From contig CADBKF010000002.1 of assembly GCA_902795195.1 (NCBI GenBank), positions 89,638 to 133,332 on the forward strand: a stretch of 43,695 bases of DNA, read 5' to 3'. A model generated the notes under the pieces. The model had not been told where the DNA came from. It saw nothing but the letters and a program-made list of their open reading frames with translations, and searched no databases. This DNA comes from Oscillospiraceae bacterium. Its GTDB lineage: Bacteria; Bacillota; Clostridia; Oscillospirales; Oscillospiraceae. Shown piece by piece: positions 3,673-42,530 of this stretch. How positions within the stretch are numbered: the stretch's first letter is position 1; each line of letters begins with the position of its first letter. The position numbers and the translations under genes are program-made.

Positions 3673-3768
3673 GAGCACCCGAAAAATAATAGGCAACAGG
3701 AGAACGATGCAGCCGGTCGTGAAACTTCTGTTGTCGATTGCCTTATAGATTACGAATGCCTCTTTCAA

Positions 3769-3800
3769 GATTCTTCGTCGCAGGCTCCTCAGAATGACAT
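3769..3800 (+). repeat. ATTCTTCG-type dispersed repeat, copy 3
   Basis: This begins AGATTCTTCGTCGCAGGCTC and ends CAGAATGACAT. It is nearly identical to the copy at 219-250 and is in inverted orientation to the copy at 3646-3672. Confidence 0.6.
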
Positions 3801-4050
3801 ATATGGGGCATCTGTCCACTGCCCACGCGCTTCTCCGGACAAGCAAGGCTTGTCCCTACAGGCATTACTCCTCGTTCCTCACTCCTCACTCCTCACTTCC
3901 ATCCCCTGATCCCTAATCCCTGCTCCTGACCCCTAGCCCCTGGCCCCTGAATCCTGAATTCGACACCCAACACACCACATATAGCGTCTGCTTCGTCGAA
4001 TCTCCACAAATAAATTGGTGTTTTTTCTGTGAAAATCTCTATAAACGCTA

Positions 4051-6267: not shown

Positions 6268-6349
6268 CGTAGTGGCCGATGCCCACATCGGCCATAAAGG
6301 TGCGATGTGCGACCGGGCATTATGGCCGATGTGGGCATCGGCCACTACG
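6268..6349. repeat. Double-hairpin palindromic element, copy A
   Basis: The 82-base element begins CGTAGTGGCCGATGCCCACA and ends with the reverse complement of that arm, with a 26-28 base centre between the arms. Each arm is itself a hairpin (TGGCCGATG against CATCGGCCA with a 4-base loop). The arms are the same in the copies at 17972, 23528, 23837 and 41199; the centre differs. Confidence 0.9.
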
Positions 6350-6356
6350 AGGGGAA

Positions 6357-6399
6357 CGGATTGCCACACCAGTGACTAGGTCACTGGTTCGCAATGATG
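6357..6399. repeat. CCAGTGAC palindromic repeat, copy 1
   Basis: An inverted repeat pairs ACCAGTGAC with GTCACTGGT and is flanked by GGATTGCCAC and TTCGCAATGA. The same unit occurs at 29774-29814 and 42487-42530, always between genes. It resembles a REP-type element. Confidence 0.75.
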
Positions 6400-6460
6400 G
6401 GACCGGGACTGTACCCGTTTCAACCAACTGCACAACGCCCTTTAGTTTTTTGACATGCTG

Positions 6461-16597: not shown

Positions 16598-16779
16598 AAG
16601 AATGAAATTTTGAAAAAATGAAAAAATTATGGAGTTTTTCATATTGACATATGAAAAACAAATCCGAATTTTCTCTCTATTTCAAATCCATCCTGAAGGG
16701 ATACCGCAATTTTTTCATTCTTTCATTTTATCATAGTTTCATTCTATATGATTCCAATGTACTGAGAAGAGAATGCCAC
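16598..16779. other. A/T-rich leader with inverted repeats upstream of xseA
   Basis: A perfect 11-base inverted repeat (GTTTTTCATAT, 16634-16644; ATATGAAAAAC, 16649-16659) has a 4-base loop. It is surrounded by a wider inverted similarity of GAAAGAATGAAA (about 16596-16612) with TTTCATTCTTTC-like sequence near 16712-16728. It is much richer in A and T than its neighbours. It may be a decayed small mobile element or a regulatory leader. Confidence 0.5.
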
Positions 16780-17976
16780 ATGGACATTTTATCCGTCTCC
16801 CAACTCAATGACTACATCAAGCGGCAGTTTGACCGCGACGAGCTGCTGGCCGGGGTGTGCGTCCGGGGCGAGATCAGCAACTACAAGGTCTACCCCTCGG
16901 GCCACCACTATTTCACGCTCAAGGACGCAGAATCCGCGATCCGCTGCGTGATGTTCAAGGGCAGCGCGCTTTCGCTGCGCTTCCGGCCGGAAAACGGCAT
17001 GGCCGTGCTGGCGATCGGCCGCGTGTCGGTCTATCCGCGCGACGGCGCCTATCAGCTTTACTGCACCCGCCTCAGCCCCGACGGGGTGGGCGACCTGCAC
17101 GTGGCCTACGAGCAGCTCAAGCAGAAGCTCCTCGCGGAGGGCCTGTTCGATCCGGCACACAAAAAGCCGATCCCGAGCTACCCTCACCGCATCGCGATCA
17201 TTACATCCTCTGCCGGCGCGGCGATCCACGATATGCTGCGCATTTTGGGCAAGCGCTACCCGCTGAGCAAGGTGATGCTGCTGCCGGTGCGCGTGCAGGG
17301 CGTGGAGGCCCCGCCGGAGATCGTCGGCGCGATACGTTATGTAAACCGTTGGAAGCTGGCCGACGTGATCATCACCGGCCGCGGCGGCGGCTCGATCGAG
17401 GACCTCTGGGCCTTCAACGACGAGCGCGTGGCCCGGGCGATCTACGCCTCCGAGATCCCGGTCATCTCCGCGGTGGGACACGAGCCGGATGTGACGATTT
17501 CCGACTTTGTGGCGGATCTGCGGGCGGCCACGCCGTCGAACGCGGCGGAGCTGGTCGCGCCGGATCAGATGGAGCTGAAAACTGCGCTCCTGCACGCGCA
17601 GAGCGCAATGAATTCCGCGATGGACCGCCGCGTCAAGCTGGCCCGGCGGCAGCTGGATTCGCTCAAAAGCGCTCACGTGCTGCAAAGCCCGCTCGCCTGG
17701 ACCCAGGACCGTAGAATGCGGCTCGACGGCCTGCAGCAGCGGCTGCTGCGCCTGTCGCAGGGCATGCTTGCCGGCAAGCGGCAGCAGTTCACGCGCCTTG
17801 CGGCGGGGCTTGATGCCATGAGCCCGCTCAAGGTGCTCTCGCGCGGCTACAGCATGGCGTTTCAGGCCGACGGCAGCATCGTCAAATCCGCCGCGCAGGT
17901 GCAGCCCGGCGACCGCATCCGTGTTCAGACCGGCGACGGCGCCTTCGAGGGCATCGTCGATCAGACGAACCCGTAG
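16780..17976 (+). CDS. xseA: Exodeoxyribonuclease VII large subunit
   Basis: This is the 398-residue catalytic subunit of the single-strand-specific exonuclease VII. An N-terminal OB-fold (VRGEISNYKVYPSGHHYFTLKD) is followed by the nuclease domain (PHRIAIITSSAGAAIHDM, GRGGGSIEDLWAFNDE, VGHEPDVTISDFVADLRAATPS), a coiled-coil region and the KVLSRGYSM tail. The ATG at 16780 matches the family start; the reading frame is open upstream through A/T-rich DNA without family similarity. Its TAG stop codon lies inside a palindromic repeat (17972-18047). xseB follows 90 bases later. Confidence 0.95.
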   Translation: MDILSVSQLNDYIKRQFDRDELLAGVCVRGEISNYKVYPSGHHYFTLKDAESAIRCVMFKGSALSLRFRPENGMAVLAIGRVSVYPRDGAYQLYCTRLSPDGVGDLHVAYEQLKQKLLAEGLFDPAHKKPIPSYPHRIAIITSSAGAAIHDMLRILGKRYPLSKVMLLPVRVQGVEAPPEIVGAIRYVNRWKLADVIITGRGGGSIEDLWAFNDERVARAIYASEIPVISAVGHEPDVTISDFVADLRAATPSNAAELVAPDQMELKTALLHAQSAMNSAMDRRVKLARRQLDSLKSAHVLQSPLAWTQDRRMRLDGLQQRLLRLSQGMLAGKRQQFTRLAAGLDAMSPLKVLSRGYSMAFQADGSIVKSAAQVQPGDRIRVQTGDGAFEGIVDQTNP

Positions 17977-18047
17977 TGGCCGATGCCCACATCGGCCATC
18001 ACTTATGGTACAGACTTGTATGGCCGATGTGGGCATCGGCCACTACG
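17972..18047. repeat. Double-hairpin palindromic element, copy B
   Basis: This 76-base copy has arms the same as copy A and a different 20-22 base centre. It starts inside the last codons of xseA and supplies its TAG stop, then fills almost the whole xseA-xseB gap. The two genes are usually coupled, so the hairpins may affect read-through or mRNA stability between them. Confidence 0.9.
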
Positions 18048-23061: not shown

Positions 23062-23514
23062 ATGAAGCTTGCAAGCGCATTGTCCGAGCGGGCCAATCTG
23101 CAGCGGCGGATCGCGGCGCTGGGCGAACGGCTGAACAACAACGCAAAAACCCAGGAGGGCGAGCCGCCTGCGGAGGACCCGGCCCTGCTGCTGCAGGAGC
23201 TGGATCAGAACATGGTCCGCCTGGAGGAGCTGATCCGCCGCATCAACCTGACGAACAGCCAGACCGTCTCCGAGGGCGAAACGCTGACCGCGCTGCTGGC
23301 CCGGCGGGACGCGATGGAAAAGCGGCTGTCGATCCTGCGCAGCTTCCTCACGGAAGCCAGCAGCAAGATCGACCGCTATTCCCGCACAGAAATCAAGATC
23401 GTCAGCACCGTGGACGTGGCCGCGCTGCAGAAGGACGTGGATCTGCAGTCCAAGCAGCTGCGGGAGCTCGATGAACGCATCCAGGCCCTCAACTGGACGA
23501 CGGAGCTGCTGTAG
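23062..23514 (+). CDS. DIP1984/septicolysin-family protein
   Basis: This is a 150-residue cytoplasmic helical protein. The start MKLASALSERANLQRRIAALGERLNNNAKTQEG and the central LEELIRRINLTNSQT segment are typical of the DIP1984 family. Later helices (RRDAMEKRLSILRSFLTEAS) are heptad-like and probably form a coiled coil. It is a single-gene unit with its own promoter, facing away from rnpB. The family name septicolysin is historical and no toxin role is implied; the function is unknown. Confidence 0.85.
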   Translation: MKLASALSERANLQRRIAALGERLNNNAKTQEGEPPAEDPALLLQELDQNMVRLEELIRRINLTNSQTVSEGETLTALLARRDAMEKRLSILRSFLTEASSKIDRYSRTEIKIVSTVDVAALQKDVDLQSKQLRELDERIQALNWTTELL

Positions 23515-23527
23515 ATAATAAGCGCCT

Positions 23528-23609
23528 CGTAGTGGCCGATGCCCACATCGGCCATTATGTCTCACTGTACCTCGTATTTTCATGGCCGATGTGGGCATCG
23601 GCCACTACG
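23528..23609. repeat. Double-hairpin palindromic element, copy C
   Basis: This is an 82-base copy with arms the same as the others and a different 26-28 base centre. It lies 14 bases after the DIP1984-family stop. Confidence 0.9.
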
Positions 23610-23836
23610 AATCCAATAAAAACAGTTGGTAGTCCGAAAAGGCGAGCGGGATCTCTGGCGGTTGAGAAGGAACCGCACCTGTATGGCGGCCGCCGGGCGC
23701 GGTCTGGGTTCGACTCCCATCTTGAACGTTACGCCCTGCACTGTCACACGCGCAGCGTCATTGCGCACCGTTACTACCATCAACGCTGATTTTCGGACGA
23801 GGGCGGCGTAAGGGGAAACAAATAAACAATTTTCTG
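23610..23836. other. Orphan stretch between two palindromic elements
   Basis: There are 227 bases with no convincing gene. It contains a small hairpin (GCGGTT with AACCGC, 23658-23676), a palindromic GGCGGCCGCC near 23686-23695 and a T-arm-like GGGTTCGACTCCC near 23704-23720. I cannot complete a tRNA fold around the last. The base composition is GC-rich, like the host. Confidence 0.5.
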
Positions 23837-23917
23837 CGTAGTGGCCGATGCCCACATCGGCCATTAGACCTTGTGCGCATTGCACTTTTATGGCCGATGT
23901 GGGCATCGGCCACTACG
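23837..23917. repeat. Double-hairpin palindromic element, copy D
   Basis: This is an 81-base copy with conserved arms, about 50 bases upstream of murD. With copy C it brackets a 227-base stretch. Confidence 0.9.
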
Positions 23918-29708: not shown

Positions 29709-29773
29709 ATTTTGTCAAAAAGAATTTCGATGAACCGGGCAGCCGGATGAAGCGTCAAGAACCTCCAGGCCTG

Positions 29774-29814
29774 TCATTGCGAACCAGTGACCGCGTCACT
29801 GGTGTGGCAATCCG
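29774..29814. repeat. CCAGTGAC palindromic repeat, copy 2
   Basis: TCATTGCGAACCAGTGAC and GTCACTGGTGTGGCAATCC flank a 3-base centre. The family is the same as at 6357 and 42487. It lies between the ispF terminator and the tRNA promoter. Confidence 0.75.
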
Positions 29815-29912: not shown

Positions 29913-29989
<77 letters not shown>

Positions 29990-29990
29990 C

Positions 29991-30027
29991 AAAAGAGACC
30001 TGAAACCGAAAGGTTTTGGGTCTTTTT
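29991..30027 (+). terminator. Element-borne terminator for the tRNA
   Basis: AGACC, AAACC, a GAAA loop, GGTTT and GGTCT form a stem with a 2-base mismatch, followed by TTTTTG. It replaces the host terminator that was pushed to the right end of the element. Confidence 0.85.
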
Positions 30028-34267: not shown

Positions 34268-34320
34268 GCATTGTTTTTTTGCGCCCCATATTCCCTACAA
34301 TATAGATACGCACATCAAGC

Positions 34321-34356
34321 GGCCCGCAAACCCTTGTGAATAAAGGGTTTGCGGAC
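34321..34356. repeat. Twin hairpin 1
   Basis: CCGCAAACCCTT pairs with AAGGGTTTGCGG around a 7-base loop. The stem and loop are nearly the same as at 34420-34456. Confidence 0.75.
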
Positions 34357-34419
34357 TTGAGTTGTTGCAACAGAGTTTATTTTTTTATATATCCGTACAT
34401 ATCAACGATTGTATCACGC

Positions 34420-34456
34420 GGCCCGCAAACCCTTATGGATCAAGGGTTTGCGGGCC
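34420..34456 (+). repeat. Twin hairpin 2 (terminator-like)
   Basis: GGCCCGCAAACCCTT pairs perfectly with AAGGGTTTGCGGGCC, with TTATTTTTG after it on the plus strand. It could be a terminator or an origin-associated structure. Confidence 0.75.
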
Positions 34457-34520
34457 TTATTTTTGTCAACAGCTTTGCCCCATACATTTGAAGCTTCGCA
34501 CCGGAAAAGCTCCAGAGAAC

Positions 34521-39901: not shown

Positions 39902-39947
39902 ATGGCATTCAAGAGGTCAGCGGTTCGATCCCGCTTATCTCCACCAA
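39902..39947 (+). repeat. Attachment site at the right end
   Basis: The 46 bases are identical to 29944-29989. The tRNA 5' half is absent, so this copy is not a tRNA gene. The original tRNA terminator follows directly. Confidence 0.92.
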
Positions 39948-39985
39948 AGAAAACAGCCATCCGAAAGGATGGCTGTTTTTCTTTG
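39947..39985 (+). terminator. Original host terminator of tRNA-Ala
   Basis: AAACAGCCATCC pairs with GGATGGCTGTTT around a GAAA loop, followed by TTCTTT. It lies directly after the right attachment site and marks the return to host sequence. Confidence 0.85.
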
Positions 39986-41198: not shown

Positions 41199-41330
41199 CG
41201 TAGTGGCCGATGCCCACATCGGCCATGATGCCCGGCAGCACGTTGCGCTTCTATGGCCGATGCCCACATCGGCCATGATGCCCGGCAGCACGCTGCGCCT
41301 TTATGGCCGATGTGGGCATCGGCCACTACG
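41199..41330. repeat. Double-hairpin palindromic element, copy E (duplicated arm)
   Basis: This 132-base copy has three arms instead of two. An arm plus centre unit of about 50 bases (GGCCGATGCCCACATCGGCC followed by ATGATGCCCGGCAGCACG) is repeated almost exactly, then the closing arm follows. Confidence 0.9.
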
Positions 41331-42445: not shown

Positions 42446-42446
42446 A

Positions 42447-42478
42447 AGATTCTTCGTTGCAGGCTCCTCATAAAGACA
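42447..42478 (+). repeat. ATTCTTCG-type dispersed repeat, copy 4
   Basis: This begins AGATTCTTCGTTGCAGGCTC and has changed end bases (ATAAAGACAG). It is related to copies at 219, 3646 and 3769. Confidence 0.5.
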
Positions 42479-42486
42479 GAAAGGGA

Positions 42487-42530
42487 CGGATTGCCACACC
42501 AGTGACGTCGGTCACTGGTTCGCAATGACG
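42487..42530. repeat. CCAGTGAC palindromic repeat, copy 3
   Basis: CGGATTGCCACACCAGTGAC and GTCACTGGTTCGCAATGACG flank a short centre, as at 6357 and 29774. A 7-base-period tract with CCTGATC-like units (about 42540-42572) follows. Confidence 0.7.

Follow-up and report, generated by a model that had tools for sequence, protein, structure and literature searches.

Palindromic Repeats in an Oscillospiraceae Genome Very Probably Form a REPIN Population Dependent on a RAYT Transposase

Introduction

Five palindromes lie scattered over a 43,695-nt stretch of an Oscillospiraceae genome (hereafter the window; C2:89638-133332 of an assembly of 2.39 Mb in 94 contigs), and they raise the question of how short elements come to keep their ends nearly letter for letter and differ in their centres. 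The original prediction, made from the letters of the window, proposed either a mobile, transposase-dependent repeat of the REP or MITE type or a structured RNA. Among described elements, REPINs are inverted pairs of REP sequences with a diverse spacer (PMC3116915, PMC8049555); here and below, comparisons draw on portions of the cited papers.

Results and Discussion

Anatomy of the Elements

The arm is a REP sequence, composed of a GTAG foot and a hairpin, GTAG-TGGCCGATG-CCCA-CATCGGCCA-T. All five proposed copies are present, with a two-arm palindrome at each place (table 1); the fifth, however, has three arms rather than two, with two similar cores in tandem and a middle arm between them that lacks the GTAG foot. 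A pattern search and folding bear out the proposal that each arm is a hairpin with a 4-base loop and that the arms are mutually inverted. Allowing up to three mismatches, the arm pattern gave 14 matches in the window (three of which are one arm read again on the opposite strand) versus none in each of 100 shuffles. Folded alone, an arm gives a stem of 9 bp capped by a 4-nt loop (-11.3 kcal/mol, z -6.1). All five whole elements of the window form long, stable hairpins (z -10.9 to -12.9) that 0 of 200 shuffles equalled in stability. The unpaired GTAG foot is unchanged in all 14 aligned arms, which had been found by way of that foot, and a C stands just before the arm in 91 of the 96 outer flanks of the paired elements.

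Table 1. Repeat elements of the window and contigs carrying the 20-nt arm inserts.
Feature	Position	Strand	Components
REPIN 1	6268..6349	.	arm 6269-6295 (+), 26-nt core, arm 6322-6348 (-)
REPIN 2	17972..18047	.	arm 17973-17999 (+), 20-nt core, arm 18020-18046 (-)
REPIN 3	23528..23609	.	arm 23529-23555 (+), 26-nt core, arm 23582-23608 (-)
REPIN 4	23837..23917	.	arm 23838-23864 (+), 25-nt core, arm 23890-23916 (-)
REPIN 5, three-armed	41199..41330	.	arm 41200-41226 (+), core, middle arm 41253-41276, second core, arm 41303-41329 (-)
Insert A	own genome C5, C10, C15, C17, C28, C46, C48, C49, C53		
Insert B	own genome C1, C5, C10, C21, C29, C48, C61		

The window elements lie at gene junctions. REPIN 2 occupies the junction of xseA (16651-17976) and xseB (from 18067), and xseA ends in a TAG stop codon (17974-17976) that is part of the GTAG foot of this element. 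REPIN 3 follows a DUF6847 gene (23062-23514), and REPIN 4 precedes murD; for the latter gene, a name of folC suggested by Pfam domains was dropped in favor of murD after an NCBIfam scan.

Copies across the Genome and the Contrast between Core and Arm

The family is not confined to the window. With up to three mismatches, the whole genome gave 63 forward and 79 reverse arm matches, a total that is an overcount given that palindromes are read on both strands, and the backward control gave none. Stretches fetched from the genome and searched with up to five mismatches resolve into 65 distinct clusters; of the 129 arms in these, 111 are exact. Inverted pairs make up 48 of these clusters, and 35 of the 48 are exactly 80 nt long. 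In all 10 single-arm clusters the arm is exact and none is decayed, unlike the singlets of Pseudomonas fluorescens SBW25 (PMC3116915); an insert-bearing partner arm adjoins seven of the 10. Most clusters do not lie deep within a long open reading frame (12 of 64 do vs 723 of 1,097 random places), and no target duplication of 2-8 nt was found in any of the 48 pairs, examined in two registers.

The centres differ literally in every copy, as the original prediction held; most genome copies are nonetheless diverged forms of one 26-nt core. Of the 35 elements of 80 nt, 34 have a core that, read in the better orientation, agrees with a single consensus at 13 or more positions, a cut-off of our choice; the excluded one agrees at 10 of 26. 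REPIN 1 matches this consensus at 21 of 26 positions and REPIN 3 at only 15 of 26; the core alignment comprises 80-nt elements alone, so that 17973-18046, with its 20-nt core, stands outside it. Mean pairwise identity is 63.6% among the cores of the 34 elements versus 99.0% among their 68 arms. Judged from this alignment, the core appears to be mostly common by descent yet drifted, and the arms undrifted. We rejected the idea that the core is captured target DNA or a guide because most cores diverge from one consensus, and we set aside a conserved small hairpin within the core, many pairs of which are broken in the list of cores inspected by eye.

Identical arms and drifting cores fit a form of copying that works only on intact arms; they would also fit gene conversion between arms. 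The same contrast suggests what a copying machinery would require of its substrate.

A Candidate Cognate Enzyme

The original prediction named a REP-associated transposase gene as something to look for, and such a gene lies on another contig with identical arms on both sides. The putative cognate RAYT (C17:23066-23512) encodes 149 amino acids. Within 700 nt of it lie three identical arms to one side and, to the other, an 81-bp array of six; an arm bearing an insert lies directly upstream of the start of the gene. The protein matches the Pfam family Y1_Tnp above the cut-off, its sole solved structural relative is E. coli TnpA-REP (4er8, E 4.7e-10), and it carries the motifs NHIH, WQ, and YIEENP. 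Of the E. coli residues that contact GTAG (PMC6006769), W, Q, H, and R are kept at the spacing of the 4er8 alignment and E is replaced by D. The NCBIfam model NF047646 (REP_Tyr_transpos) gives 78.9 bits (E 3.5e-22) against a curated cut-off of 80 that serves as an annotation threshold. Based on these sequence features, we regard the gene as a RAYT, with the reservation that its NCBIfam score falls 1.1 bits under that cut-off.

This gene has company. A Y1_Tnp profile search of the genome returned seven places at E <= 1, three of them above the cut-off, and four of the seven are surrounded by a GTAG-hairpin family of their own: besides the cognate gene, three further RAYT genes (C17b, C7:27387, and C6:28269) each sit amid a different REP family. 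A hairpin search found no GTAG hairpin around the other three (C1, C20, and C7:71375), and the place on C20 gave no match with a RAYT protein query. Four REP/RAYT pairs in one genome, together with the co-variation between species described below, provide a natural data set on how RAYTs read hairpins.

The features of the cognate gene resemble the REPtron of TnpA-REP subclass 2.4, or Bertels group 4 (PMC6006769), in the motifs NH[IFV]H, WQ, and YIxxNP and in the GTAG-foot REPs around the gene. The likeness is one of motifs compared, not of position in a tree: the subclass 2.4 tyrosine motif is YIxNNP, one position off the YIEENP found here, and at its base the stem has a T-A pair, in contrast to the three G-C pairs of canonical 2.4 REPs. 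Hosts of the subclass in Table 1 of that paper are Cyanobacteria, Bacteroidetes, and various phyla. E. coli TnpA-REP and its BIMEs (4er8; PMC8266576) share with the present system a GTAG foot, a single-strand hairpin, and a related enzyme; the E. coli REP stem is bulged, however, and the stems here are perfect, as in group 3 REPs.

The RAYT genes of this genus are also found near the gyrase genes. In this genome gyrA and gyrB have a RAYT between them, and the cognate RAYT is one gene away (L053 6064-13613). Among 30 loci judged with about 1.5 kb of flank, a RAYT adjacent to gyrA or gyrB occurs in at least seven of 22 genus relatives, and one of 28 other loci of the family is linked to gyr as well. 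The further loci with a RAYT at or next to gyrB-gyrA, from the genus relatives and at least one genome of another genus, are L084-L088, L091, L108, L136, and L354. Common descent explains the repetition of this linkage inside the genus. The linkage is notable given that BIME-2 of E. coli binds gyrase (PMC2817692).

Arms and Enzymes Change Together between Species

The arm pattern was matched in 20 of 39 genomes, our own included, and all 20 belong to the genus. Among the matches listed, the usual arm of three relatives (G006, G010, and G019) is GTAGGGG...CCCT, in which a G-C pair replaces T-A at the stem base, and every two-mismatch arm of a relative is a paired change, although pairing was not required by the search; other relatives, such as G009, keep T-A forms. 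Two more stem positions change in step in arms that lie beside the RAYTs of further genomes. Over 14 arms, whose selection with a hairpin search and by inspection biases them toward pairing, there are 27 double-change cells distributed over eight of the nine stem pairs, a result reached in 0 of 500 shuffles, and 99.2% of cells are paired versus 71.4% in shuffles.

At 27 loci that have an arm in the flank, chosen in the same way and with the same bias, a comparison of arm similarity with RAYT similarity gave a rho of 0.41 that none of 9,999 permutations reached; here the translation strand and frame of each RAYT were set by stops and motif. NH[IVL]H is present in all 27 of these loci and a YIxxNP-type motif in 24. 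More broadly, a RAYT relative (E <= 1e-8) occurs in 43 of the 150 genomes of a family sample, our own included. For the related loci we took the best 80, mostly from metagenome-assembled genomes titled Oscillospiraceae or Clostridia, 76 of which have sufficient flank: a GTAG hairpin lies within 400 nt of 26 of the 76 versus 46 of 582 control windows, and the hairpin search found none within that distance of the other 50.

Orthologous Sites in Relatives

We compared three sites of the window, those of REPIN 2, REPIN 3, and REPIN 4, with orthologous junctions in related species, between which loss of an element and failure to insert are indistinguishable at any one site. Inspected by eye, the xseA-xseB junction is compact and free of repeats in 12 of 17 relatives, and the other five carry different insertions there. 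Among these are, in G017, a G-C-form REPIN of the same family, one arm of which bears an insert, and, in G019 and G010, other GTAG palindromes. REPIN 3 and REPIN 4 are both missing from all six relatives aligned over the junction of the DUF6847 gene and murD, which were chosen for matching both outer sides, and three of the six have different GTAG-foot hairpins near the position of REPIN 4. The original prediction had asked whether empty sites exist between related strains; what we find are junctions without this arm type at three sites, a comparison made between species rather than strains. The xseA-xseB and murD junctions illustrate that different repeat families reach the same places in different species.

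Within the gap between the DUF6847 gene and murD, at 23618-23812 of the window, about 180 nt are kept at 71-81% identity in the six relatives. The predicted fold of this stretch has double changes at 11 of 37 pairs, and no Rfam family matches it at gathering score. Based on this predicted fold, it is possibly a structured RNA that has yet to be named.

A Probable REPIN Population and Its Alternatives

We posit that the family is very probably a REPIN population, non-autonomous and dependent on a RAYT. We favor this reading because the anatomy of the arms, their copy number, the cognate enzyme, the co-variation of arm and enzyme, and the absence of elements from orthologous sites all point to it. 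Weighing against it are single arms that show no decay, three Y1-like places and 50 related RAYT loci around which the hairpin search found no GTAG hairpin, the NCBIfam score, and a comparison of sites confined to other species. Of the original proposal of a mobile REP/MITE-type repeat, the REPIN-like side therefore stands, with arms genome-wide, a RAYT, and sites in relatives that lack the element; a classical MITE with terminal inverted repeats and target site duplication hardly does, given the lack of target duplication in both tested registers. By this mechanism a RAYT (TnpA-REP), a single-strand HUH/Tyr enzyme, would move two inverted REP arms and the short spacer between them in trans. 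By analogy with the enzymes of E. coli and Stenotrophomonas, it would bind the arm hairpin and the GTAG foot in single-stranded DNA, and the strand would be cut beside the arm and then joined into a new site. Cleavage by E. coli TnpA-REP falls at CT next to the REP, and this enzyme requires GTAG; perfect stems are handled by the enzyme of Stenotrophomonas (PMC8266576). Copies would land mostly between genes and without target duplication. Only arms recognised by the enzyme would be copied and the arms would thus stay near-identical; the core would need only to exist, and would drift.

We consider it improbable that the arms are instead kept identical by selection for a host role, in transcription termination, mRNA stability, or the binding of gyrase or the nucleoid, rather than by RAYT copying. 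Such a role would account for arms far more conserved than cores and for the placement of the window elements at gene junctions, and the gyrase binding of E. coli BIME-2 (PMC2817692), taken with RAYT genes adjacent to gyrA or gyrB in at least seven of 22 genus relatives, lends it some weight; however, the sites of the elements are not kept between species, and arm sequence and RAYT vary together from one species to another. Intrinsic termination in particular would need a T-rich flank, and at least five T occur in the first 10 nt of only three of the 96 outer flanks.

Far less probable is the other half of the original proposal, a structured RNA family that acts in transcripts. The very stable hairpins and the compensatory changes would suit it, but the elements have no Rfam match at gathering score, and the window as a whole yields RNase P and one tRNA only. 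Low-threshold matches of the elements to microRNA families lie far below gathering scores and were taken as chance, of a kind that any long hairpin would produce. An RNA function leaves the RAYT unexplained, and likewise the GTAG foot, which is unpaired and invariant in the 14 aligned arms, and it does not account for the clustering of arms around the gene of a single-strand DNA transposase; a role in RNA may be a secondary effect. The elements are short and non-autonomous with terminal inverted repeats, but that they are classical MITEs moved by a DDE transposase is hardly tenable, given a linked enzyme that is a Y1/HUH protein and the 0 of 48 pairs with a target duplication in either register.

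Returning to the REPIN reading, the closest published counterparts that we compared are the REPINs of SBW25 (PMC3116915), which share invariant inverted REP ends, a less conserved spacer of near-fixed length, an extragenic location, a proximal RAYT, and a long hairpin. The present elements differ from them in sequence, in their Oscillospiraceae host, in a core with a 26-nt consensus, and in the 20-nt inserts of some arms. What is new here is a member of the REPIN-RAYT type; it is ordinary in kind, with an arm that changes in step with the enzyme between species. A literature search, which lay largely outside subscription papers and judged part of its hits by title, returned no account of REPINs or of RAYT-REP pairs in Clostridia. 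The available text of PMC6006769 mentions Clostridia twice, in a reference and in connection with the IS200-type subclass 1.1, and a word search of the available text of PMC3733652 gave none of six clostridial or Gram-positive terms. With the present family, the REPIN-RAYT system would reach a genus of Oscillospiraceae that probably lives in the rumen.

Inserts of 20 nt within Arms

Two unrelated 20-nt inserts, A and B, occur at the same point of the arm, CAT^C, and in the same direction (table 1). A search by stem ends found arm interiors of 8 nt in 115 distinct contexts of our genome, of 13 nt in one, of 28 nt in 10, and of 48 nt in two; in relatives the same search gave 8 nt in 43 contexts, 28 nt in 12, and 29, 41, and 52 nt once each. 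Insert A occupies 10 places in our genome, none of them in the window, and is present in 16 of 23 genus genomes, our own included; with the flanking bases left out of the pattern, it was again found in 16 of the 23, at 124 places. In a sample of 295 genomes of the order, a list that held no other genome of the genus, a shorter pattern with two mismatches found it in ours alone. Among 30 places examined together with their locus, 27 have insert A exactly between AT and C and three slightly off, and a stem of at least six pairs spans the insert in 19 of the 30 versus 359 of about 2,000 random places. Insert A also occurs within REPs that have other stems and, in at least three places (L361, L372, and L373), within a non-hairpin repeat. 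Insert B occupies eight places in our genome, and a pattern that included its flanks found it in none of the other 22 of the 23 genus genomes.

We offer as a speculative and rather unlikely suggestion that, in this genus, REP arms are the landing site of a second, fixed-length, site-specific 20-base unit, perhaps made by a RAYT. To our knowledge, 20 bases is far below the size of any known transposon; if the suggestion is true, such a unit would be nested in REP arms.

Other Repeats of the Window

The window holds further repeats. An inverted repeat of another family, GGATTGCCACACCAGTGAC...GTCACTGGTTCGCAATGA, lies at 6353-6406, 29765-29814, and 42483-42506, and was found once between degenerate REP arms (locus L229). 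The repeat AAGATTCTTCGTC...AGAATGACA lies at 217-302, 3767-3806, and 42446-42485, and a stretch that resembles it stands between REP arms in locus L215. A hairpin repeat, CCGCAAACCCTT...AAGGGTTTGCGG, is present at 34314-34472 as two 60-nt copies 99 nt apart. Finally, a second copy of the 3' part (29944-29994) of the tRNA-Ala gene (29913-29988) lies at 39902-39952, 10 kb downstream, with 96% identity, and this duplication could mark an integrated element between 29944-29994 and 39902-39952.
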